From: a virus
Length of the DNA stretch: 56,792 nt
Direction: 5' to 3' (one strand)
IMG/VR virus record: IMGVR_UViG_3300036906_000230
Location: 1 to 56,792 of that record
Shown piece by piece: positions 3,966 through 34,713 of this stretch. Made by a program: the position numbers and the translations under genes. Numbering within the stretch: position 1 is the stretch's first letter; every line of letters starts with the position of its first letter. The notes beneath the pieces were generated by a model, which saw only the letters and a list, made by a program, of their open reading frames with translations, was not told the origin of the DNA and made no database searches.

Positions 3966-5745
3966 GGCGCGACTCCTTGTTGGTCGAGTAATCAGCCGGA
4001 TCGAATTCCTCCGGCAGCACCCACCTCGATTGCTCTTTGAATTTCGCTCCACGATGCCGCATGCTTTTTGCGCCCAGCGCCGAGAGCATCCCGGCCACGG
4101 CTTTGACCGAAAGCGCCTGGAACGTGGTCTTGTTGACGTACACCTGGAGATCGCCAGCGCAGACTGTGATCTTCCCGTCGATCACCATGGGCCTGCGCTG
4201 GTCCTGAATACGCTGGTCCTCGACGGACGGGATGAAGCCAGTCTCGGAGAGGTAATGCTGCAAATACATCCGGGCGGCACCTTCCCACTCGACTTCTTCA
4301 GTGCCTTCTTCGATCTGGCAGGCGTCAAGAAGCATCTGCGCCAACTGGTCCCAATGCTTGGGCTTCAGCTTCACAATCAATCTGCCCACCGTGGCTGCGA
4401 TGGCGACCCGTACGGCATCCTGGGAAATGAGCTTTACCACGGAAGGGAACTCGATCTTCCCCTCCGCCAGTTCCATCCGGTACTGAGGCTCCTTGCCGGT
4501 GATCTTGATGAGGCGCAGCACCCGGATTCCGAGGACCTGCGACACCTTTTCGCACAGCTTCGCCCTGGCGCGCGCCGGATCGAGGGTGGCGTTCTGCTTC
4601 GGCTGGCCGTTCTCCGGCGCGCCTGAGGCACCCTGTTCGCCAGAGGGGCCGGTCTGTGCCGATCCGGGCGGCGCCGGGAGTGCGGGCGCTGGGACGCCAG
4701 GAGTTCCGAGTGGCGCGGCGAATGGGTCTATTCCTTGGACCCGCCTCGCCGCCTTCGTGATGGTCCGCTGAAAGTAGTCAACCCTGGTGCGAGGCCTCTG
4801 GCCGTGAAGATGGCGGTGGTGGATGATGAGATCGACGATCTGGCCTTCGGAAAGGCTGGCATCCAAACCGAAGCACGCCAGGGCGAGATCGTAACCGCTC
4901 TGGCTTTGGTCCTTCAGGTCGTGCCTCTGGCGATTCCAAGTGTTCCGGAATCGCATTCCCGCGACGTCGCCGCAGTTGGCCCACGCCTCAATCACGTCAT
5001 CAGGAATCCGTGCGTTCAGATCGATGACCAGGGGCTTGTCCGCGAACCGTTCGGCCCACTGTCGCGAGGCCTTCTCATCGGCTTCTGGATCGGGGATCGC
5101 GGCGTCGTCCAGGAATTCTTCGAAGTCCGAGATGTTGTATCGGCGGTCGGTAAAGGAGTAAAGCTCGACCGGTTTCGGATGCGCGCCGTCCTTGAAGTTG
5201 GTGGTGGACGGCAGGCGCAACACGCGCGCCAGGTCGGAAAGCCGATCATATGCCCAGCCGTGCGTCGCGGCGGTCAACTGCAACATGGTGTGCCACCGCG
5301 TTACGACGCGAGCCACGTCCTCGCGGTCCTCCTCGCCATCGAAGATGTACGGCTCCTTGAACAGCCACCAGCAGTGCAGGCCATTGCCGGTCGCGATAAT
5401 GATCGTGGGCGGCATCGAAGCGGGCAGGATGGCGAGGGCCTGCTGAACGGTCTGCGGGAGCGCCTTCTTGCTGTGCGCGTCGGACAGGAGATCCAAATCC
5501 GACCACATGCCGGTCAACCCGGTGATCTCTTCCGAGGCACACCGGTGCGTGGGCCCGTGGTCCTTACCGGCCAGCCCGACGCCGACGTACACGTCCCTGC
5601 CGCCGTTGACGGACCCCACGTATTCGGCCGCGGAGCCAACGCTGGTGAACCACCGCGACCGCTTATCGGGGTGCGTCCATATAAGGATGTGATGATCTTC
5701 GGGCTTCTCCTGCCAAAGTTGATTGAGGAATTCAAGCGGGGTCAT
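3958..5745 (-). CDS. AEP/RepB-type DNA primase
   Basis: 595 residues. The N-terminal ~230 residues look like an archaeo-eukaryotic primase domain of the RepB/prim-pol type: an acidic metal motif SDLDLL, the GNGLHCWWLFKEP strand-turn, and DLARVLRLPSTTNFKDG. A Pro/Ala/Gly-rich linker lies near residue 350. The C-terminal ~170 residues, with many Arg and Lys, look like winged helices. It probably lays down primers for phage replication. It sits directly before the UvrD-like helicase with overlapping ends (ATGAGTAA). The exact primase subfamily is my judgement from motif layout. Confidence 0.75.
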   Translation of the reverse strand: MTPLEFLNQLWQEKPEDHHILIWTHPDKRSRWFTSVGSAAEYVGSVNGGRDVYVGVGLAGKDHGPTHRCASEEITGLTGMWSDLDLLSDAHSKKALPQTVQQALAILPASMPPTIIIATGNGLHCWWLFKEPYIFDGEEDREDVARVVTRWHTMLQLTAATHGWAYDRLSDLARVLRLPSTTNFKDGAHPKPVELYSFTDRRYNISDFEEFLDDAAIPDPEADEKASRQWAERFADKPLVIDLNARIPDDVIEAWANCGDVAGMRFRNTWNRQRHDLKDQSQSGYDLALACFGLDASLSEGQIVDLIIHHRHLHGQRPRTRVDYFQRTITKAARRVQGIDPFAAPLGTPGVPAPALPAPPGSAQTGPSGEQGASGAPENGQPKQNATLDPARARAKLCEKVSQVLGIRVLRLIKITGKEPQYRMELAEGKIEFPSVVKLISQDAVRVAIAATVGRLIVKLKPKHWDQLAQMLLDACQIEEGTEEVEWEGAARMYLQHYLSETGFIPSVEDQRIQDQRRPMVIDGKITVCAGDLQVYVNKTTFQALSVKAVAGMLSALGAKSMRHRGAKFKEQSRWVLPEEFDPADYSTNKESRHE

Positions 5746-26102: not shown

Positions 26103-26215
26103 TTTCGAATGGCCAATGACGATTCGCAGACAGCACCCGGCCAGGCGTGCATCGTTACAACACTCGGCGGATAATTAGACGTTCGGGCAAACCGTTCAAT
26201 CGCGAGGAGCGTTCT

Positions 26216-28018
26216 ATGCCACTTCTGATCCCTCCAGAGACTTGCAAGATCCTCGAGAATGTCGATGCGGGGTTGCAGCCACTTGCTGAATTCGAACTCG
26301 CAGACCAACTCTCGGTCGTGCTCAACGACGCTGGGCTTTCTTCGAACGAACGCAGGGGAGCGTCCGCTGAATGGGCAGCATTCTTCTTTCGGGCGCTCGG
26401 CGACGAAAACGCCGGCCCCTGGAACACCTATTACGGTCCAACACTTACCGCCAGTAACGCGCAAGGGCACCCAGTTTATATACCAGACCTCGCTCAAGTC
26501 GACACGGAAACAGTAGCCCACTGGGAGCAACGCTCGACCGCCGCAAAGCACCCCATTCTTCGCGCTCGATACGCGGACTTGGTATGGGACCTCAAGCCGC
26601 ACGCGATCCAGCAACGGGCAGACGTACAGTTTGCACGCATAGCCATCGATGCCTACATCGACGCCATCCGCGCAAGGTTGTACAAACATTCAGTTTCCTC
26701 CGTGCAATCCCTCCAGCGAGCATTAGCTCTCGCGCTGATCACGAAAGATTCGGCACGCCTACAAATGTGCAAGGGGGTGATGCTCGTGAGTTTCGATGCA
26801 GTAACCGAGTCACGGGAGTTCGGGAACTGGACAATGGTTGTTGATAAAACCCTTCGCAACAAGAAGCTCGATCTTACCCAGGAGGAAACCGCACGCTTCG
26901 TTACCGGCCTCGAGCGACTCCTGGCGGCTTGCACGATCGCAGGAAGTCCCCAGTTCGACCCGTGGGCCGCAGAAGCCGCAGCTACGGTACTCGCTTCACA
27001 CTATGACCGCACCAGCCAAAAAGACCAGGTCCATCGCGTCATCCGTGCCTATGGCACCGCGTTCGAGTATATCGCCGCAAACGCGAGCGCGACGTTTGCC
27101 ATGGGGTGGCTTCAGCCGATCTTCGACGAGTACCGATCCCGCGGCATGACAGCCGATGCAGACCGGGTATTGCAGGCTTACACAGACAAGGGCAAGCACG
27201 CCGCCGACGACCTCAAGAGCATCCACGCACCTATCGAGATTCCTGAAGCGGAGTTCGAGAAGTTTCTCGACGCGATCAGCGAGGGCACTGTCCCCGAGTG
27301 CCTCGCGAGAGTCGCAGTCCGATTCATACCCAAGGCCGGGAAGATCAGGGACCTCCTCCAAGAGATGCTGAGTCGCACGCCGATTCTGGCACGCATCGAA
27401 GTAACCCGAATTGTTGACGGCCACTTCGCCGCGCAGGCCGGGTCAATAGAGACCGACCCCGATGGGCGACTCATAATGCAACTTGCGCAGTACATCGATG
27501 GTGAGGATCTCTTTCTTATCCCGGCCCTTGAGAGAATACGGCAAAGGCACCAGCCTGATGCTCGGACAATCCTATCCGTCTTGGAGGCATCTCCCATTTT
27601 TGACCCGGAACGGCGCGCGCTACTCGAAGGTGGCATACAGGCCTACCTGGCTGGAGATCACGTCAAGGCTATCCATGTCTTCATACCGCAAGTGGAACAC
27701 ACGCTGCGAAGACTTCTCACTCTGCTGGGAGTGCCGACCCTCAGAGCGGGCAGAAGTGGCCTCATGCAGGTTAAGAACCTCAATGAGATTCTGCGCGAAG
27801 CTGCGATTCAAACTGCACTGGGAGAGGACCTGCAGCTTTACCTTTTAACGCTTCTTGTCGATCAGCGCGGCCAGAACATCCGAAACATGATCTGTCATGG
27901 GTTCGCTAGTCCCGTACACTTTAACCAGCGGGTGGCGGATCGCATGCTCCACGTTCTACTAACCCTGTCACTGGTCCGAGAAAGGACCAGTCCGAATGCG
28001 CCGACATCTACTTTGTAG
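26216..28018 (+). CDS. DUF4209-type HEPN protein, plus-strand moron
   Basis: 600 residues from the ATG at 26216, with GAGGAG seven bases upstream; a GTG at 26147 is less likely. The N-terminal ~200 residues form a helical domain, and more helices follow. The C-terminal ~130 residues end in the DUF4209 signature DQRGQNIRNMICHG. Here Arg556 and His561 form the Rx4H motif of HEPN ribonucleases. HEPN proteins often act as RNases in abortive infection and toxin systems. The gene runs against the late operon, between tape measure and gpM-like genes, with AT-richer sequence, so it is probably acquired cargo. Its stop lies two bases from the convergent tape measure stop. Confidence 0.8.
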   Translation: MPLLIPPETCKILENVDAGLQPLAEFELADQLSVVLNDAGLSSNERRGASAEWAAFFFRALGDENAGPWNTYYGPTLTASNAQGHPVYIPDLAQVDTETVAHWEQRSTAAKHPILRARYADLVWDLKPHAIQQRADVQFARIAIDAYIDAIRARLYKHSVSSVQSLQRALALALITKDSARLQMCKGVMLVSFDAVTESREFGNWTMVVDKTLRNKKLDLTQEETARFVTGLERLLAACTIAGSPQFDPWAAEAAATVLASHYDRTSQKDQVHRVIRAYGTAFEYIAANASATFAMGWLQPIFDEYRSRGMTADADRVLQAYTDKGKHAADDLKSIHAPIEIPEAEFEKFLDAISEGTVPECLARVAVRFIPKAGKIRDLLQEMLSRTPILARIEVTRIVDGHFAAQAGSIETDPDGRLIMQLAQYIDGEDLFLIPALERIRQRHQPDARTILSVLEASPIFDPERRALLEGGIQAYLAGDHVKAIHVFIPQVEHTLRRLLTLLGVPTLRAGRSGLMQVKNLNEILREAAIQTALGEDLQLYLLTLLVDQRGQNIRNMICHGFASPVHFNQRVADRMLHVLLTLSLVRERTSPNAPTSTL

Positions 28019-28020
28019 CG

Positions 28021-31000
28021 TCATGCGATCACCAGCCCCGGCTGCTGAATGATCGCTGAGTTCTGCAATCGCCCGTTGCTGGCTGATGCCGCGCTCGACC
28101 ACTGGGACTGAACGAACTCCGGCGTGACGACTTGGCCGGCCACGAACTGCGCGGCACCCTGGCCAGCAACGTTCACCTGCAACGTCATCGGGCCAGGAGC
28201 GGGATACGTGCCGGTCGAATAGCCGCCTGCCACCGGTAGGTTGCTCTGGAACGTGTACGGCGTACCGTTGACATAGGTCGCCTGCTGGTAGAGCTTGCCG
28301 CCCATTTCCGCAAGACTCCCCGACTGCGGGGTCGTGGCCGACAATGGCATCTTCTGCCCCGTGGATTCCGAATAGAGCATCAGCATCTTCCGCACGTCCG
28401 GATCGCGGACCGCGATGCTTACGTGGCCGGCGTATTTCTGCTGCGCGATGCCAGCGATCTGCTTGGCCATCGAGTTGTCGATGCTGATGGAGTAAAGCTG
28501 CTTGACCAGCCGCTTGGCCTCATTCTCCGGGGACTCAACTCCGAACACCTTTTCCCCGACACCGGCCAGGAAGCCCGCGCCCGCGCCGATTGCCGCGCCG
28601 AGCGGACCGCCAATCTGCTCCCCGATCAGCGCGCCTCCGGCGGTGCTTTCCGCGATACCACCCCACGTACCGCGCTGCGAGCCGAACAGGCCGTTCATCG
28701 CGAGCATCATTCCGGCGGCACCGGCGGCAGGCGATTTCGCGACACCCTGTACGCCACCCGAGAGCCCGCCACCGGCGTCGTCAAAGACCTTCTGGTTCCA
28801 TACAGTGCCTTTCAAGTTCTGAAGCGTCTTTGAGAGGCCATCTTTGGAGAACAGGCTGTAGACGCCCGACGTTCCGCCCTTCTGGCTCGCACCCAGGATC
28901 ATGCCCAGGGGATTCATGTTGAAGCCGGAGTGCGTAATGGGAAGGTTGAAGATGTCGGCGGGTGGAACACCCGATGCGCCAGGACTGGCCGCGCCTCCGA
29001 TGCTGATCGGAATGGACGCCCCCGGTCCAGTACCACCTGCGCCGCCCGAAACAGAGCTACCGCCAGCCGCCGGAATCGAAATCGCCGGAAGCGAGATGCC
29101 GCCTGGGATGCCGGTCGGCGCGGCAATGGCGGGCGCACCCATGCCCATCGCAGCCGCGAAAACAGCCGTCAACGATGCAATCGCCATCGAGTTCTGCGCC
29201 GTGACTGCTGTATTCAGATCGGTAGCCGCCTTGATGGGGTCCTGCTTGCCGGCGCCGAAGATCCCTTTGAAAACACCCGCGATCCCGCCGTGCCCGTCGC
29301 TGCCATATATCAGAGGATGGATCGCACCCGCTACCATGCCTCCCAGACCCTCCGTGATCGGCTTGAGCACAGCCTCGCGAATCGTGCCGGCAAGCTGCTT
29401 CCCAAATTCCTGCGGCTTCGTAAACAGCGTATGGAAGAGGCCCGAGGAGACCTTCTGCAACCCGTCGATCTCCTGCTGCAACTCCTGTACCCGCTTTTGC
29501 GCGATTTGCGCGCGCTTTTCTTCGAACTGATCCTGAGCCTGCGCCAGGTCCGTGTAGAGGCCCTTCTGCGCCTGCGCCGCCAGCACCGCCCGCTTCGCGG
29601 CATTTTCCTCTTTCGAGATCCGCACCGCCTCGATGCCCGCCAATTGGACAGCCAGATCGACTCTGACTTGGTAGGCTTGTTGCGCTGCGGTCTGTTCCTT
29701 TCGAGCCGACCGCTCGCGCTTTTCGGCCTCCGACATCGCCATCGGCGTTTCCTGGCCCGCGGTCAGTTCCGCCATGCGCCCGGAGCGCGCCGCCCGGCGC
29801 CGCAGCTCTTCCCGCTGTGCCTGCACACCGATGTCTTCAATCCGTTCCTGGGCCGCGAACCCCTCTTCCCACTCTTTCATCTGCTGCTTGCTGGGCATCA
29901 TCAGCATGGCCATCTTGTGCGCCCGATCCGCGGCCTGCTTCTGGTCGTACTTCTCGAACTCTTCCCACGCCTTCTTCGATATCACCGACGCCTGCTCATC
30001 CGCCGACTTCCGGATGGCTGCTATCTCCGCTTCCGAAGCCTTCACCTGCGTAGCCTGCTTGAGCAACAGATCGCGCTGGTAGTAAATCTTCTCGATGGCC
30101 GAGAGGTCTGCTTCGTCGCCCTTCTTGGTGAACGCCGAGGCTTCCGTCGTGAACTTCTTCCGTTCCTGCTCGAGGTCGAGAGCCCCTTTCAACCGCGCCT
30201 CGTTGCGCTGTGCGGCGGCGAGGCTCTTGCCGATGTCGGTGGCCTCGGATTTGGTCAACGGTTTTTCGGGGTCGCCCTCGAACAACTCCTTCCGGTACTT
30301 CTCCACATCCTTCTTGGCCTGCTGGTACGCCTGCTCCAGCCCATCGTGAGTGGCGAAGAACTGTCCGCGCAGCCCGTCGATGTACTGCTTGCCCTGTTTC
30401 AGTTCGGTGCGCCGCGTCGCCTTGCCGGCCGCATTGAGCAACTGTTGGAGGCTGTCAATTTCCTTGTGGATCTGGTCAGCCTTCTTCATGCGCGCAAGTT
30501 CGTCTTCCGTGGGTGCGATAGCTTGCAGGATGCCGAAATCGCCTGTGAGTTGCTGCTCCTGCCCCCGCAGCGCTTCCATGCGCTTTAACGTGGCATCGCG
30601 GTTGCGCATGATCTCCGGCGCCTGCCGCTCCATGTCGGCCTGCTGCTTTCGATGCGCGCTCAGCGATTCCTTTGCGCCGATTCCGCCCGCTGCCCAAATC
30701 TGGCGCGCTTCCTCTTCCTCCTGACGTGCCCGCTCGTCATCCCCGGCGGTGCCGACGTTGTCGAGGAACCACTTCACGCCCGCGCCGATCCATTTGATGG
30801 AAACGGAAAGCGTGGTGACCAGGCCCTCCTTGAACTTGCGCATCAGGCCGTCCCACTTGGTCTCCAGTTCGGCCACGTCGCGCTGGTATTCCGTGAAGCG
30901 CCGGATGTCGTCCTCGGTGGGGCCGAAGCCTTGCTCCCTGGCTATGCGCAGGTTCTCGGTCAATTCGGTGATCATCGGCACGGCTTCGATGCCTGCCCGC

Positions 31001-31872
31001 TTGAAGATGTCCATCGCCGCGCGGTTACGGTCGATCGCATCCGGAAGGCGATTCAGACCCTCCCCGAGTTCCTGGAGGATCTCGGAGGTGGGGCGCAGGT
31101 TCCCGAGCTCGTCGCGAGTGGAGACGCCGAGGCTGCGCAGCGTGGTGCGCGCCTTCTCGCCCTCGCTGGTGTTTTCCGTGAGGGCGTTCGTCAGCCCGCG
31201 CATCATGCGCTCGACGAGAGAGATATCCTGACCGACGGCTTTCGCCGCGAAGCTGAACTGGCCGACCTCTTTCGCGGTGAGGCCGGTGCGGAGTTCGGCA
31301 TCCTTCACCCTCACGCCGTATTCGCCCAGGCTTTTGGCCGCTTCCCATCCGGCAGTGGCGACCGCCGCGAGCGCGGTCGCGCCGATGGCAAGGCTACCGC
31401 CCATTGGCCCGATCTTTTCGAGGAGGCCTGTGGCCGCTTCCTTCGACGCGTTCAGCGGATCTCTGAGGAAGCCCTCTATGTTCCGGCCGAGAGCCTGAAA
31501 GCTCCCGCCGGACTTGCCGCTCTCGACGTCGATCATCTTCGCGTAGGAGGCAGTAACGCGGTCGATCATGCCCTGCTCATCGCCGAGCTTTTTGATGATC
31601 CGGTCGCGGTCGGCAATGAGACGGTCCACGCCGGTCTTGCCATAAGCGGCCGCCTGCTTTTCGATGGACTGCGTAAGCCGCTCCATGGAACTCCGGGAAC
31701 GGTCGTTCATCTTCAGCAACATGTCGGCCATCCGCTCCAGCGACTTCTGCATCTTGTCGCCGGAACCGATGGTCTGTTTCTCCCAGCCCTCCACGGCCTG
31801 GTTGGCCTGCTTGATAGCAGTCAGCACGCTGCGCGGATCGACGTCGAGGACGATAGATTCCTGGTCTGGCAT
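28021..31872 (-). CDS. Tail tape measure protein
   Basis: 1283 residues, the longest helical protein in the tail cluster. It is Gln/Glu/Lys/Ala-rich with long coiled coils throughout. There is a hydrophobic stretch near residue 160 (GGSLAIGATALAAVATAG) and a Gly/Ala/Pro-rich region from ~930 on. This is the pattern of tape measure proteins, whose length sets tail length and which is ejected ahead of DNA. The start codon follows the previous stop without a gap. Confidence 0.9.
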   Translation of the reverse strand: MPDQESIVLDVDPRSVLTAIKQANQAVEGWEKQTIGSGDKMQKSLERMADMLLKMNDRSRSSMERLTQSIEKQAAAYGKTGVDRLIADRDRIIKKLGDEQGMIDRVTASYAKMIDVESGKSGGSFQALGRNIEGFLRDPLNASKEAATGLLEKIGPMGGSLAIGATALAAVATAGWEAAKSLGEYGVRVKDAELRTGLTAKEVGQFSFAAKAVGQDISLVERMMRGLTNALTENTSEGEKARTTLRSLGVSTRDELGNLRPTSEILQELGEGLNRLPDAIDRNRAAMDIFKRAGIEAVPMITELTENLRIAREQGFGPTEDDIRRFTEYQRDVAELETKWDGLMRKFKEGLVTTLSVSIKWIGAGVKWFLDNVGTAGDDERARQEEEEARQIWAAGGIGAKESLSAHRKQQADMERQAPEIMRNRDATLKRMEALRGQEQQLTGDFGILQAIAPTEDELARMKKADQIHKEIDSLQQLLNAAGKATRRTELKQGKQYIDGLRGQFFATHDGLEQAYQQAKKDVEKYRKELFEGDPEKPLTKSEATDIGKSLAAAQRNEARLKGALDLEQERKKFTTEASAFTKKGDEADLSAIEKIYYQRDLLLKQATQVKASEAEIAAIRKSADEQASVISKKAWEEFEKYDQKQAADRAHKMAMLMMPSKQQMKEWEEGFAAQERIEDIGVQAQREELRRRAARSGRMAELTAGQETPMAMSEAEKRERSARKEQTAAQQAYQVRVDLAVQLAGIEAVRISKEENAAKRAVLAAQAQKGLYTDLAQAQDQFEEKRAQIAQKRVQELQQEIDGLQKVSSGLFHTLFTKPQEFGKQLAGTIREAVLKPITEGLGGMVAGAIHPLIYGSDGHGGIAGVFKGIFGAGKQDPIKAATDLNTAVTAQNSMAIASLTAVFAAAMGMGAPAIAAPTGIPGGISLPAISIPAAGGSSVSGGAGGTGPGASIPISIGGAASPGASGVPPADIFNLPITHSGFNMNPLGMILGASQKGGTSGVYSLFSKDGLSKTLQNLKGTVWNQKVFDDAGGGLSGGVQGVAKSPAAGAAGMMLAMNGLFGSQRGTWGGIAESTAGGALIGEQIGGPLGAAIGAGAGFLAGVGEKVFGVESPENEAKRLVKQLYSISIDNSMAKQIAGIAQQKYAGHVSIAVRDPDVRKMLMLYSESTGQKMPLSATTPQSGSLAEMGGKLYQQATYVNGTPYTFQSNLPVAGGYSTGTYPAPGPMTLQVNVAGQGAAQFVAGQVVTPEFVQSQWSSAASASNGRLQNSAIIQQPGLVIA

Positions 31873-32322
31873 CTATGCCGCCTTGGCGACGCGCACGACC
31901 CGCGCCTGTTTGAGGACCGCCAGCACAATGGCGTTCAGCGCAAGCCGGTCCCTGGGCGAAACACCGAACTGCCGCTCGCGCAGATTATTCACGTGCGCGA
32001 TGCGATCCGCGTTCGGATCGACAAAGCCGATCACCACGCGGTTCTCGCTTGCGCTCTTGACCTTGAGCGAGCGCATCGTGCGCCCGGTCCAGAACCAGTC
32101 GCGGAACGGTTGCAACCCGCGCGCCGCCTTGTAATCCGGATAACCGCGATGGCCGTTCCTGCCCGGCTTGAGTGGCCGCGCCTCCGCGTCGCTCACGTTG
32201 ACGGCTTTCCGGATGCGCGCGGAAATGCTGTCCACGAGAACGGTCCCGATGGTCTGCATGTCCTCGGCGGTGAAGGGCCCCAGGACCCACCGGGCGCGCG
32301 TGATCTTAGGTTGGAAGGGCAT
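31873..32322 (-). CDS. Phage virion morphogenesis / tail completion protein
   Basis: 149 residues. Helical N-terminus (MQTIGTVLVDSISARIRKAVN), then WTGRTMRSLKVKSASENRVVIGF and HVNNLRERQFG. This is the pattern of small virion morphogenesis proteins (HK97 gp10-like or Mu gpG-like) that bind at the tail terminus. It lies between the chaperone genes and the tape measure, an unusual place for this family. Identification is moderate. Confidence 0.6.
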   Translation of the reverse strand: MPFQPKITRARWVLGPFTAEDMQTIGTVLVDSISARIRKAVNVSDAEARPLKPGRNGHRGYPDYKAARGLQPFRDWFWTGRTMRSLKVKSASENRVVIGFVDPNADRIAHVNNLRERQFGVSPRDRLALNAIVLAVLKQARVVRVAKAA

Positions 32323-32344: not shown

Positions 32345-32611
32345 GTGAAGAACATTGCGGAAATCAAAGCGGCTTTCGATCTGACGGGCATCATGCAGCA
32401 TTATGCGAAAGGCGAACACAAGGACAAGATCGGCCTCCAATACGACGTCCTCGCGTGGATTTTGTGCGATGGCGAGAGCGCGGAACCGTTCGAATCGTTC
32501 TTGGACATCGGCCGGAAGTTCATGGAGAAGAACAATGCGACAATTACCCGCGTGATGCCCGATGGCCGGACCGAGCAGGGTGCCGATTTCCGGCGAAAAC
32601 CAAACACGTAA
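32345..32611 (+). CDS. Small plus-strand gene between tail genes
   Basis: 88 residues, GTG start. Composition (NIAEIKAAFDLTGIMQHYAKG, DVLAWILCDGESAEPFESF) and codon use look like a real protein, unlike the minus-strand frame opposite it. A three-codon frame (ATG AAG GCG TGA) overlaps the GTG start. I do not recognise the protein. It is the third gene running against the late operon and probably moron-like. No promoter is obvious. Confidence 0.55.
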   Translation: MKNIAEIKAAFDLTGIMQHYAKGEHKDKIGLQYDVLAWILCDGESAEPFESFLDIGRKFMEKNNATITRVMPDGRTEQGADFRRKPNT

Positions 32612-32634: not shown

Positions 32635-33075
32635 TCACACGATTGGCGGTTTCTGCGATTGCTCCCGCTGATACCGTTCGCGTTCTTCCTTCAGGATCTG
32701 CAACCCACGGACCTCTTCCGCGGTGACGTCGCTCCAGGGAATACTGAAGTGCGCGGCGTCGAACTCCAGTTCCAACAGCCGCTCAAAGAGGCGGCCGGCG
32801 TTGGAATGCGTCCGCGCGTAATCCAGATCGTCCAGTTTGCAGTGGGCACAGCGGTTCACCATGAATTGCCAGCCGCCGCACTGCGGGCAGGCGCCAGGCG
32901 CGTTGGTGTCCTCCACCGTTCGAACCACGCCGCACTTTCCGCAGGCGACGTCGTTGGCGTCGGGGCAGCCGCGCGGGCCGTCCGCACCGCCATCGCACAA
33001 CTCGCACGCGCGCACCGAACGATGGATCAATAACCGGAGAGGGACCGGCGCGGGCCACTCATCCGGCGCTAAGAG
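32635..33075 (-). CDS. Tail chaperone GT extension (-1 frame), zinc-ribbon protein
   Basis: About 146 codons open from the slippery site at 33075 to the stop at 32635, in the -1 frame of the upstream gene. It reads LLAPDEWPAPVPLRLLIHRSV, then a cysteine-rich region with CELC, CGKCG, CPQCGG and CAHC pairs (two probable zinc ribbons). It ends with a helical part (WSDVTAEEVRGLQILKEERERY) that resembles T-domain ends. There is no good ribosome-binding site before the in-frame TTG at 33030, so it is probably made as a fusion to the upstream protein. Lambda gpGT is the model: a tape-measure chaperone. Confidence 0.7.
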   Translation of the reverse strand, partial: LLAPDEWPAPVPLRLLIHRSVRACELCDGGADGPRGCPDANDVACGKCGVVRTVEDTNAPGACPQCGGWQFMVNRCAHCKLDDLDYARTHSNAGRLFERLLELEFDAAHFSIPWSDVTAEEVRGLQILKEERERYQREQSQKPPIV

Positions 33076-33683
33076 TTTGGGTCGAGCGCCGGGTCGAGGT
33101 CGTCGATGGCCTGCACCAACTCCACGGTGACCGCCGACTTGTGATGCGGCGGGACATCCGCCGGCTTGAACGACTCCGCGTATCCCTCGATTTTGCCGGC
33201 GACCGAATCATACAGATCCACTGCCGGTTCAATCCGGTATCGCAACTCTTCCTGGCCGTGGGGGAGATCGGTGGAGGAAACCACCGTGCGCCGGTACACG
33301 GTGATGTCCCGCTGCGTCGGGATTTTCACCGTGTGGACGGTCGTTCCAAACGGCGTCTTCAATGTGACCTGGTACTCGTCGCCGGCCCGCTGGCAATCGG
33401 CTACCTCGCAGTACGTCAGTTTCGAGACGGCGTTCCCCGCCTCGAATTCGTCGAACTCCGCGCCGCCCTTGTCCAGCCGGATCTGGTTGAACAGGTCGAG
33501 GTCGGCCTTCGGATTCGGCACGAATTCCGTCTGCGATTTCCGCCGGCCAATCGTGCGCCGGATCGATTTCTGCTGGGCCAGGCGGTCCAGCATCTCCTGG
33601 CTGGTCGGCAACCGCACCATCGCAGTTTTCGGCGGGTTTGGCACCCGGATCGTAATGCCCTCGGCGGGAATGTCTCCGTACAT
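33069..33683 (-). CDS. Tail assembly chaperone, gpG-like
   Basis: 204 residues, ATG after AAAGAGGAG. It has a basic N-terminal region and a beta-rich middle (YQVTLKTPFGTTVHTVKI, RDITVYRRTVV). It ends DDLDPALDPNS. It lies between the tail tube and tape measure, where G-type chaperones are encoded. The last codons read GAC CCA AAC TCT TAG, including the heptamer CCCAAAC in the X XXY YYZ frame. So a fraction of ribosomes can shift into the downstream zinc-ribbon frame. The G assignment comes from position and frameshift, not from clear sequence similarity. Confidence 0.75.
   Translation of the reverse strand: MYGDIPAEGITIRVPNPPKTAMVRLPTSQEMLDRLAQQKSIRRTIGRRKSQTEFVPNPKADLDLFNQIRLDKGGAEFDEFEAGNAVSKLTYCEVADCQRAGDEYQVTLKTPFGTTVHTVKIPTQRDITVYRRTVVSSTDLPHGQEELRYRIEPAVDLYDSVAGKIEGYAESFKPADVPPHHKSAVTVELVQAIDDLDPALDPNS
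33075..33081 (-). other. Programmed -1 frameshift site CCCAAAC
   Basis: On the minus strand the heptamer C CCA AAC is in the zero frame two codons before the stop TAG. After slippage, translation continues CCC AAA CTC TTA GCG and stays open for about 146 codons. No strong downstream stem was found by eye. Confidence 0.75.
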
Positions 33684-33699: not shown

Positions 33700-34713
33700 C
33701 TACTGCGCGATTCCTGCGATGCCGCAAAGCGTCGTCACGGACATCACCGTGTTCTGCGAGTTGCTGTACTGCGGCGCGCCCGTTACCGTCACGGCCACGA
33801 TGCCATCCGCCTCCGCATTTTCCGCGACCTGAAATGCCATCTGCGGGAACGTGAACGTCACCGAGTTGTTGGCGTCGTGCTGCACGCTGAGCGTCGCGGT
33901 CCCGGTGGTCTGGCTCACCAGCGTGTTGTACTCCGGTGATCCGGCAAGCAGCCGGGCGGTGAACTGGAACGACGGCACGCGCGCGCCCACTTCCATCCGG
34001 CCGCGCACCTGCAATCCGTTCTGCAAGCCGGATCCGGGGAAGAAGCCTGCGTTCAGCAGGAGGTTATTCTTCCAGCCCACCGATCCTGACAGGATGCGTT
34101 TCGTCGCGACGTAATCGACGCCGTTAACTGAGAGCGTCATGCCCGCCGCGAGCATGTTGTTTTCGCTGGTGAGCGCGGGGACGGTAATGCCGCTCGGCGT
34201 GGTCAGCAGCCCGGAGCCGACCCAGTTGACCGTCAGCTTCGAGGACGCGCGGCCGGGCCCGTAGGTGAACTGGTACGTGAAATCTTCAATGGCGCAGCCG
34301 ACGTACAGGTTGTCCACCGCGCTGCCGCCGCCTTCCGCCACCTGCTCGACGATTGAGAAATACGGCAGTTCGAGCGTGGTTCCCGGATTGATCGGCAGGA
34401 TCGTGTACGTGTAGGGTGCTGCCGAACCGGTCTGCGCCACGTTGCCGAGACCGAACGCGCAGGCCCAGGTCACGAATTCCGCGCTGGCGTATTTCTCGAT
34501 GCGGTTGGCCACCTCGTAGTGCGATGGGAAGGTCTGCGTGATGAATTCATGCCCCTTGCCGATTTCCGCCGCATCGTTCTCAAAGATCGGTTTCGGCGTC
34601 GTCAGCACCGTGTCCAGTTTCTTCAACCGCAGGAACGTGGCGCCTGCGGCCGAGATGCTGGCCTGCTTACCTTTGCCAAGCCCGAGGATGAGTTGCTGAA
34701 TTCTTGCCGGCAT
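33700..34713 (-). CDS. Major tail tube protein
   Basis: 337 residues, Gly/Ser/Thr/Ala-rich and beta-rich, with few Cys. Segments such as ASSKLTVNWVGSG, MTLSVNGVDYVATKRI and FQFTARLLAGSPEYN fit tail tube folds, and the C-terminus has GIVAVTVTGAPQY, similar to an Ig-like end. It follows the terminator-like genes and precedes the chaperones, as lambda gpV does. It would polymerise into the non-contractile tube; no sheath gene is present, consistent with a siphovirus. Confidence 0.8.
   Translation of the reverse strand: MPARIQQLILGLGKGKQASISAAGATFLRLKKLDTVLTTPKPIFENDAAEIGKGHEFITQTFPSHYEVANRIEKYASAEFVTWACAFGLGNVAQTGSAAPYTYTILPINPGTTLELPYFSIVEQVAEGGGSAVDNLYVGCAIEDFTYQFTYGPGRASSKLTVNWVGSGLLTTPSGITVPALTSENNMLAAGMTLSVNGVDYVATKRILSGSVGWKNNLLLNAGFFPGSGLQNGLQVRGRMEVGARVPSFQFTARLLAGSPEYNTLVSQTTGTATLSVQHDANNSVTFTFPQMAFQVAENAEADGIVAVTVTGAPQYSNSQNTVMSVTTLCGIAGIAQ

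Follow-up and report, generated by a model that had tools for sequence, protein, structure and literature searches.

A putative programmed -1 ribosomal frameshift joining a probable tail assembly chaperone to a predicted zinc-ribbon extension in soil phages

Two overlapping reading frames lie in the tail region of a viral sequence of 56,792 nt (IMG/VR virus record IMGVR_UViG_3300036906_000230, positions 1 to 56,792), referred to here in its entirety as the window. The question raised by this locus is whether the second frame is translated by programmed frameshifting from the first, as an independent gene, or not at all. In lambda-type G/GT systems, gpGT is made at a low level and in a fixed ratio; G binds the tape measure protein, T binds the tube, and neither protein is found in the virion. 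Frameshifted tail chaperones of this type are already well known, in lambda and beyond (PMC5009743). Comparison with relatives on viral and metagenome-assembled genome (MAG) contigs, designated below by L numbers, indicated that the locus very probably encodes a tail assembly chaperone of the lambda G/GT type, whose long form arises by programmed -1 ribosomal frameshifting.

The slippery heptamer and the frame it opens

The gene at 33683-33069 on the minus strand (204 codons) reads CTC GAC CCA AAC TCT TAG at its 3' end. Re-reading of the sequence placed CCCAAAC at 33081-33075, exactly as in the original prediction, in the zero-frame X XXY YYZ register that a canonical -1 signal requires. The -1 frame is free of stops from 136 nt 5' of the gpG stop to 32635; the predicted products are gpG (204 aa) and gpGT (203 + 146 = 349 aa), and both the open frame and the sizes first proposed, about 204 and 349 residues, were borne out. 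The features concerned are:

33069..33683, minus strand: gpG-like tail assembly chaperone (0 frame, 204 aa); conservation extends over 43 complete viral loci and divergent relatives, with weak fold matches to tail chaperones
33075..33081, minus strand: slippery heptamer C CCA AAC, invariant within the window's clade
32635..33081, minus strand: T extension in the -1 frame (gpGT, 349 aa), ending in the stop TGA at 32637-32635; identified from pN/pS and conservation

Scanning viral contigs returned 45 relatives of gpG, 43 of which were complete at the junction. All 43, as well as the window, had C CCA AAC at the same codon position, with a single codon separating it from a stop. The open -1 frame of each began PKL(L/V), and xPDEWPxPVPLRLL nearly always came next. 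The same arrangement was present on five Acidobacteriota MAG contigs (L047-L051; Bryobacterales, Solibacteraceae and relatives), which points to Acidobacteriota as the host phylum of these phages. Profile scans also detected CCCAAAC at the same codon in L087, L095, L139-L141, L149 and L150, loci with 29-56% gpG identity or known by their T. In another Bryobacterales locus (L052, 8001-8587), gpG was interrupted before the slip site, probably in a decayed prophage.

The codons GAC CCA AAC were invariant in 34 distinct gpG genes of the window's clade. Single-codon columns made up 5 of the 113 conserved degenerate gpG columns in these genes, and three of the five belonged to the slip site (its D, P and N); CCA accounted for 12% of proline codons and AAC for 72% of asparagine codons. 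The codon between heptamer and stop varied (TCT, TCC, TTC, TTT, TTG or TCG) in such a way that the -1 frame stayed Leu-Leu or Leu-Val, the frame 0 residue shifting among Ser, Phe and Leu. The comparison with relatives suggested in the original prediction therefore revealed a heptamer that is kept together with both proteins, and this conservation of the heptamer and the -1 frame supported the programmed frameshift proposed there.

Over extension codons 4-27, the -1 frame had a pN/pS of 0.40, and the two remaining frames gave 1.07 and 2.23; as far as sequence comparison can tell, purifying selection therefore acts in the -1 frame only. No ATG, GTG or TTG was common to the relatives, three of which (L025, L026 and L042) had none in the first 45 extension codons. 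No AGGAG-like Shine-Dalgarno sequence preceded any in-frame ATG, GTG or TTG in the first 45 extension codons of 33 distinct sequences. The lack of a usable ribosome-binding site for the downstream frame, as initially described in the window, thus holds among its relatives. In eight loci (L003, L024, L027, L029-L031, L039 and L040), a stop in the -1 frame was found directly 5' of CCC AAA; the frame can therefore be entered only at the heptamer or downstream of it. Entry downstream is excluded because PKLLAPDEWP is conserved and a start is lacking. Frameshifting at the heptamer is the sole entry fitting the coding, start and stop evidence together, all of it comparative.

We considered the possibility that the downstream frame is an independent gene, using its own start or termination-reinitiation after the gpG stop. 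Candidate codons exist, since the window has an in-frame TTG at 33030 as well as GTG and TTG codons, and L002 has an in-frame ATG before DPDEWP. However, the conserved PKLLAPDEWPxPxPLRLL coding sits 5' of every candidate start, and initiation would leave both the invariant CCCAAAC and its homologous replacements unexplained. In clade C, described below, 35 of the 69 distinct sequences had no possible start before the conserved RFLI motif. An own start for T was ruled out by the absence of a shared start and of a Shine-Dalgarno sequence, and we consider an independent gene very improbable. A frame change by RNA polymerase slippage (transcriptional realignment) instead of ribosomal slippage, known for some prokaryotic frame transitions (PMC3711429), appears less probable still: the heptamer contains runs of three C and three A only, too short for known cases, and the X XXY YYZ codon register and stem-loop spacing suit a ribosomal site. 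Least probable of all is a sequencing or assembly error or a decayed gene, with G and T really one gene or a pseudogene; one product is indeed split over two frames and the prophage relative L052 looks broken, but the same codon is broken in dozens of independent metagenome and MAG contigs, both frames are constrained and a slippery motif lies at the break, so that conservation ruled this out.

The predicted downstream stem-loop and the expected products

Canonical X_XXY_YYZ signals have a stimulatory structure 5-9 nt downstream. The original prediction described the heptamer correctly but missed a downstream stem-loop, which was predicted here from constraint and folding:

33034..33066, minus strand: predicted stimulatory stem-loop, 8 nt 3' of the heptamer; based on synonymous constraint, pairing and folding

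Synonymous diversity in the -1 frame fell well short of the expected level at the slip codons as well as at codons 5, 7, 13, 14 and 15 (counted from 0), the Pro-13 codon being CCT in 29/32. It returned towards normal from codon 16, and the constraint thus stopped after codon 15, which is the end of the stem. The constrained codons make up both arms of the stem-loop (CCGGA-bulge-GAG / CUC-UCCGG, plus an upper helix). Stem pairing was found in 91% of cells versus 41-55% after sliding one arm, and covariation was almost nil because the arms hardly vary. The window stem-loop folded at -19.4 kcal/mol (z -1.7), and L006 and L023 gave z values of -3.4 to -3.9; single-sequence folds of three clade members spanned -19 to -27 kcal/mol (z -1.7 to -3.9). 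The upper helix proposed by RNAalifold was slightly unlike that of the single-sequence folds, the covariation being too low to choose between them. Constraint on the stem region is thus established by comparison, and the stem-loop, a structure that is well supported if not proven, would account for the synonymous constraint beyond the slip site. In L002, a 54-nt in-frame insert (5614-5670) directly after the gpG stop displaced the usual stem. The insert itself folded into a hairpin of -33.5 kcal/mol, 4 nt after the heptamer, and is possibly a replaced frameshift stimulator.

According to the model that we propose, most ribosomes would produce gpG and stop at TAG, and a minority would pause at C CCA AAC, aided by the stem-loop. 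The Pro and Asn tRNAs would then re-pair on CCC AAA, and translation would continue in the -1 frame to yield gpGT. If lambda is a guide, the coat on the tape measure protein would consist of many gpG and few gpGT molecules, with the T part recruiting the tail tube subunit. We infer the slippage efficiency, as well as the chaperone role of these products in the tail.

In the standard tandem-slippage model, both tRNAs decode frame 0 before slipping, and the joint would read DPN-LLAPDEWP. The fusion junction peptide would be expected mainly with DPNLLAPDEWPAPVPLR; LLAPDEWPAPVPLR after K would correspond to slippage before A-site decoding, making DPK-LLAP a minor or alternative joint. Compared with the P-K-L-L joint put forward originally, the main product is thus expected to differ in the residue at the joint. 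A search for P-K-L-L only would miss the main product, because tandem slippage gives DPN-LLAPDEWP.

Tail gene order and the zinc-ribbon extension

The chaperone assignment was examined in the context of the surrounding genes and of the T product:

33700..34713, minus strand: upstream gene, probable major tail (tube) protein; from its position in all clades, the tube identity being putative
32839..32997, minus strand: zinc-ribbon part of T, with Cys29, 39, 47, 50, 65, 68, 78 and 81 of the -1 frame product; from invariant Cys, a predicted ribbon and weak profile matches
31873..32322, minus strand: small conserved tail gene between T and the tape measure gene; from gene order
28021..31872, minus strand: tape measure protein, 1283 aa; PhageMin_Tail 1.8e-5, PHROG tape measure 1.5e-8

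Tape measure copies in the relatives gave PHROG matches near 1e-10, and the L174 copy of the upstream gene matched PHROG 290 'minor tail protein' (4e-12). Pfam and PHROG searches returned no family match for the 31873..32322 gene. The order seen in the window between 34713 and 28021, two overlapping frames with the tape measure gene two genes downstream, was the same in L036, L141, L149, L150, L174 and L255. In the loci checked, which came from all clades, the probable tube gene preceded gpG and the tape measure gene followed it, except in L139, whose downstream side resembles host DNA. The head genes of the window encode a gpA-type terminase, a lambda-family portal and a Phage_cap_E-like capsid protein.

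Neither gpG nor T matched a Pfam, PHROG or NCBIfam family. Searches against 50,697 phage records gave chance matches only, and PDB sequences nothing usable. The AlphaFold model of gpG (pLDDT 83) had weak viral matches (E >= 0.006) that included three tape measure chaperones, Mu FS-gp41 and the Gemini tail assembly chaperone, and against the PDB it had polo-box-like partial matches only, with Z under 5. Because no family matched and all fold matches were weak, the chaperone role is deduced mainly from gene order; the tail-chaperone identity suggested at the outset thus drew its support from synteny and weak fold similarity, not from a database match. On the sequence searches made, gpG/T is a lambda-like G/GT arrangement outside any named sequence family.

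The eight T cysteines were invariant in 27 sequences and also in 16 divergent ones. Paired CxxC knuckles are present: C47xxC50...C65xxC68 is invariant, and the model has strands at 44-47, 53-55 and 73-75. The T model (pLDDT 85) contained a zinc ribbon at residues 32-85, the rest of the extra part being helices, and structure comparison with the PDB yielded common zinc ribbons only. In agreement with the zinc-ribbon extension that had been predicted, the eight invariant cysteines and the modelled ribbon supported a putative zinc-binding ribbon in T. Archaeal zinc-ribbon proteins (HVO_2753-like, PRK14890), L40e and rubredoxin-like proteins share the CxxC...CxxC geometry with T and show weak profile and fold similarity to it; only the ribbon matches, whereas the flanking helices and the second Cys set of T do not. 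Clade B retains four of the eight cysteines only, and the second ribbon is therefore an optional module. A literature search that covered few subscription papers found no zinc-ribbon T domain, and a T of this type would connect chaperone and tail tube in a new way.

Two genes on the opposite strand were observed beside this module. An 88-aa open frame without a family match (32345-32611, plus strand) lies in the interval that separates T from the tail gene after it. Because a copy that is 81% identical is found at the same place in L023 (6340-6077), this frame probably represents a genuine moron gene. A gene for a 623-aa DUF4209/DUF7380 protein (26147-28018, plus strand) separates the tape measure gene from the tail gene that follows and is an insertion, L036 and L149 having no gene at this place. 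Its product matched the PADLOC candidate defence model PDC-S39 (E 3e-45).

Slip-site turnover and relation to known systems

Clades B and C were reached via a Solibacteraceae MAG and then found in 160 viral loci. In clade B, AAATTTT, AAATTTC, CCCAAAC or GGGAAAC was present at the homologous place in 62/77 loci with a closed gpG. The other 15 carried AGT or ACT, then TTT or TTC, then a stop, with both proteins kept. One related genome locus had AAAAAAC at the homologous place. Clade C (80 loci) kept both proteins without any XXXYYYZ motif, and C CCG GAA directly preceded the stop in 76/80. Its last gpG codon was always GAA, though GAG is twice as common, and the codons forming the downstream stem (CGCCCGG / CCGGGCG) were almost invariant. 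In crude base shuffles, z over the 60 nt downstream was modest, the means being -1.7 in clade A, -0.6 in clade B and -0.4 in clade C. Four clade C loci (L187, L226, L234 and L239) read TCG GAA TAG instead of CCG GAA TAG; their T frame is intact, and they have neither known slip motif. The retention of both proteins in clade C and in the 15 clade B loci despite the missing X XXY YYZ heptamer counts against the frameshift reading, although the CCCGGAA of most clade C loci had already been put forward as a motif (PMC10885494).

On a tree of 84 rows, the motif changed at least 15 times, and CCC/GGG exchanges altered all three X bases together. The position of the slip site was unchanged while the heptamer was swapped among clades (AAAUUUU, GGGAAAC, AAAAAAC, CCCGGAA). 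From this turnover at a fixed position, it follows that selection evidently maintains slipperiness at the putative site rather than particular amino acids. At first sight clade C was a rule-breaking exception. This was mostly explained by the hypothetical 'threetwotwo' motif of PRFect, which most commonly reads CCCGGAA and for which G:U re-pairing is the explanation (PMC10885494). Clade C has C CCG GAA directly before the stop, as in that motif; it differs in that its members are soil phages unmatched among the phage records searched, and in the support that comes from invariant codons and from constraint on a stem downstream. Repeated motif exchange at one homologous position independently supports CCCGGAA, so far only hypothesised, as a slip site.

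The locus resembles lambda G/GT in its order of tube-like gene, G, T and tape measure, in a -1 frameshift near the 3' end of G at a tandem slippery heptamer, and in the lambda-type terminase, portal and capsid genes of the window. Unlike lambda, its G and T have no sequence match to known families, CCCAAAC followed by a conserved predicted stem-loop replaces the lambda site, T carries a predicted zinc ribbon, and T is separated from the tape measure gene by an additional small gene. The related heptamers C_CCA_AAG, on which E. coli ribosomes readily shift, and G_GGA_AAC, which the haloarchaeal virus HCTV-1 uses as its g-t site (PMC5009743), follow the same X XXY YYZ logic, whereas the site described here is C_CCA_AAC, with an Asn and not a Lys A-site tRNA, in Acidobacteriota phages. 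The mechanism is ordinary, because G/GT frameshifts, C_CCA_AAG slippage and G_GGA_AAC use were already known. The novelty lies in the protein family and its occurrence in phages of Acidobacteriota, in the turnover of the motif, and in a T arm with a predicted zinc ribbon, for which the papers searched gave no precedent.

On balance, we lean towards a family of frameshifted tail chaperones that has not been described before and that has a metal-binding module as its T arm. Its slip site would have been swapped repeatedly among CCCAAAC, GGGAAAC, AAAUUUU and CCCGGAA, and possibly also for slips of a single tRNA on the last codon ahead of the stop (U_UUU_UAG, CGGAAUAG). If so, these phages are a natural experiment on the sequences that bacterial ribosomes can slip on, and the turnover allows the rules of slippage to be tested within one and the same protein. 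Programmed frameshifting of the type best known from phages would gain a large family that lacks annotation (over 200 soil-virus loci, many of them near-copies, with copies also in Acidobacteriota MAGs). Throughout the family, gene callers would miss T or call it as a separate gene.

Two contigs carried two different copies of the tail module each: L149 and L150 lie on IMGVR_UViG_3300036781_000806 (66 kb), and L201 and L245 on IMGVR_UViG_3300048503_000180 (86 kb). These are either neighbouring prophages or chimeric contigs.
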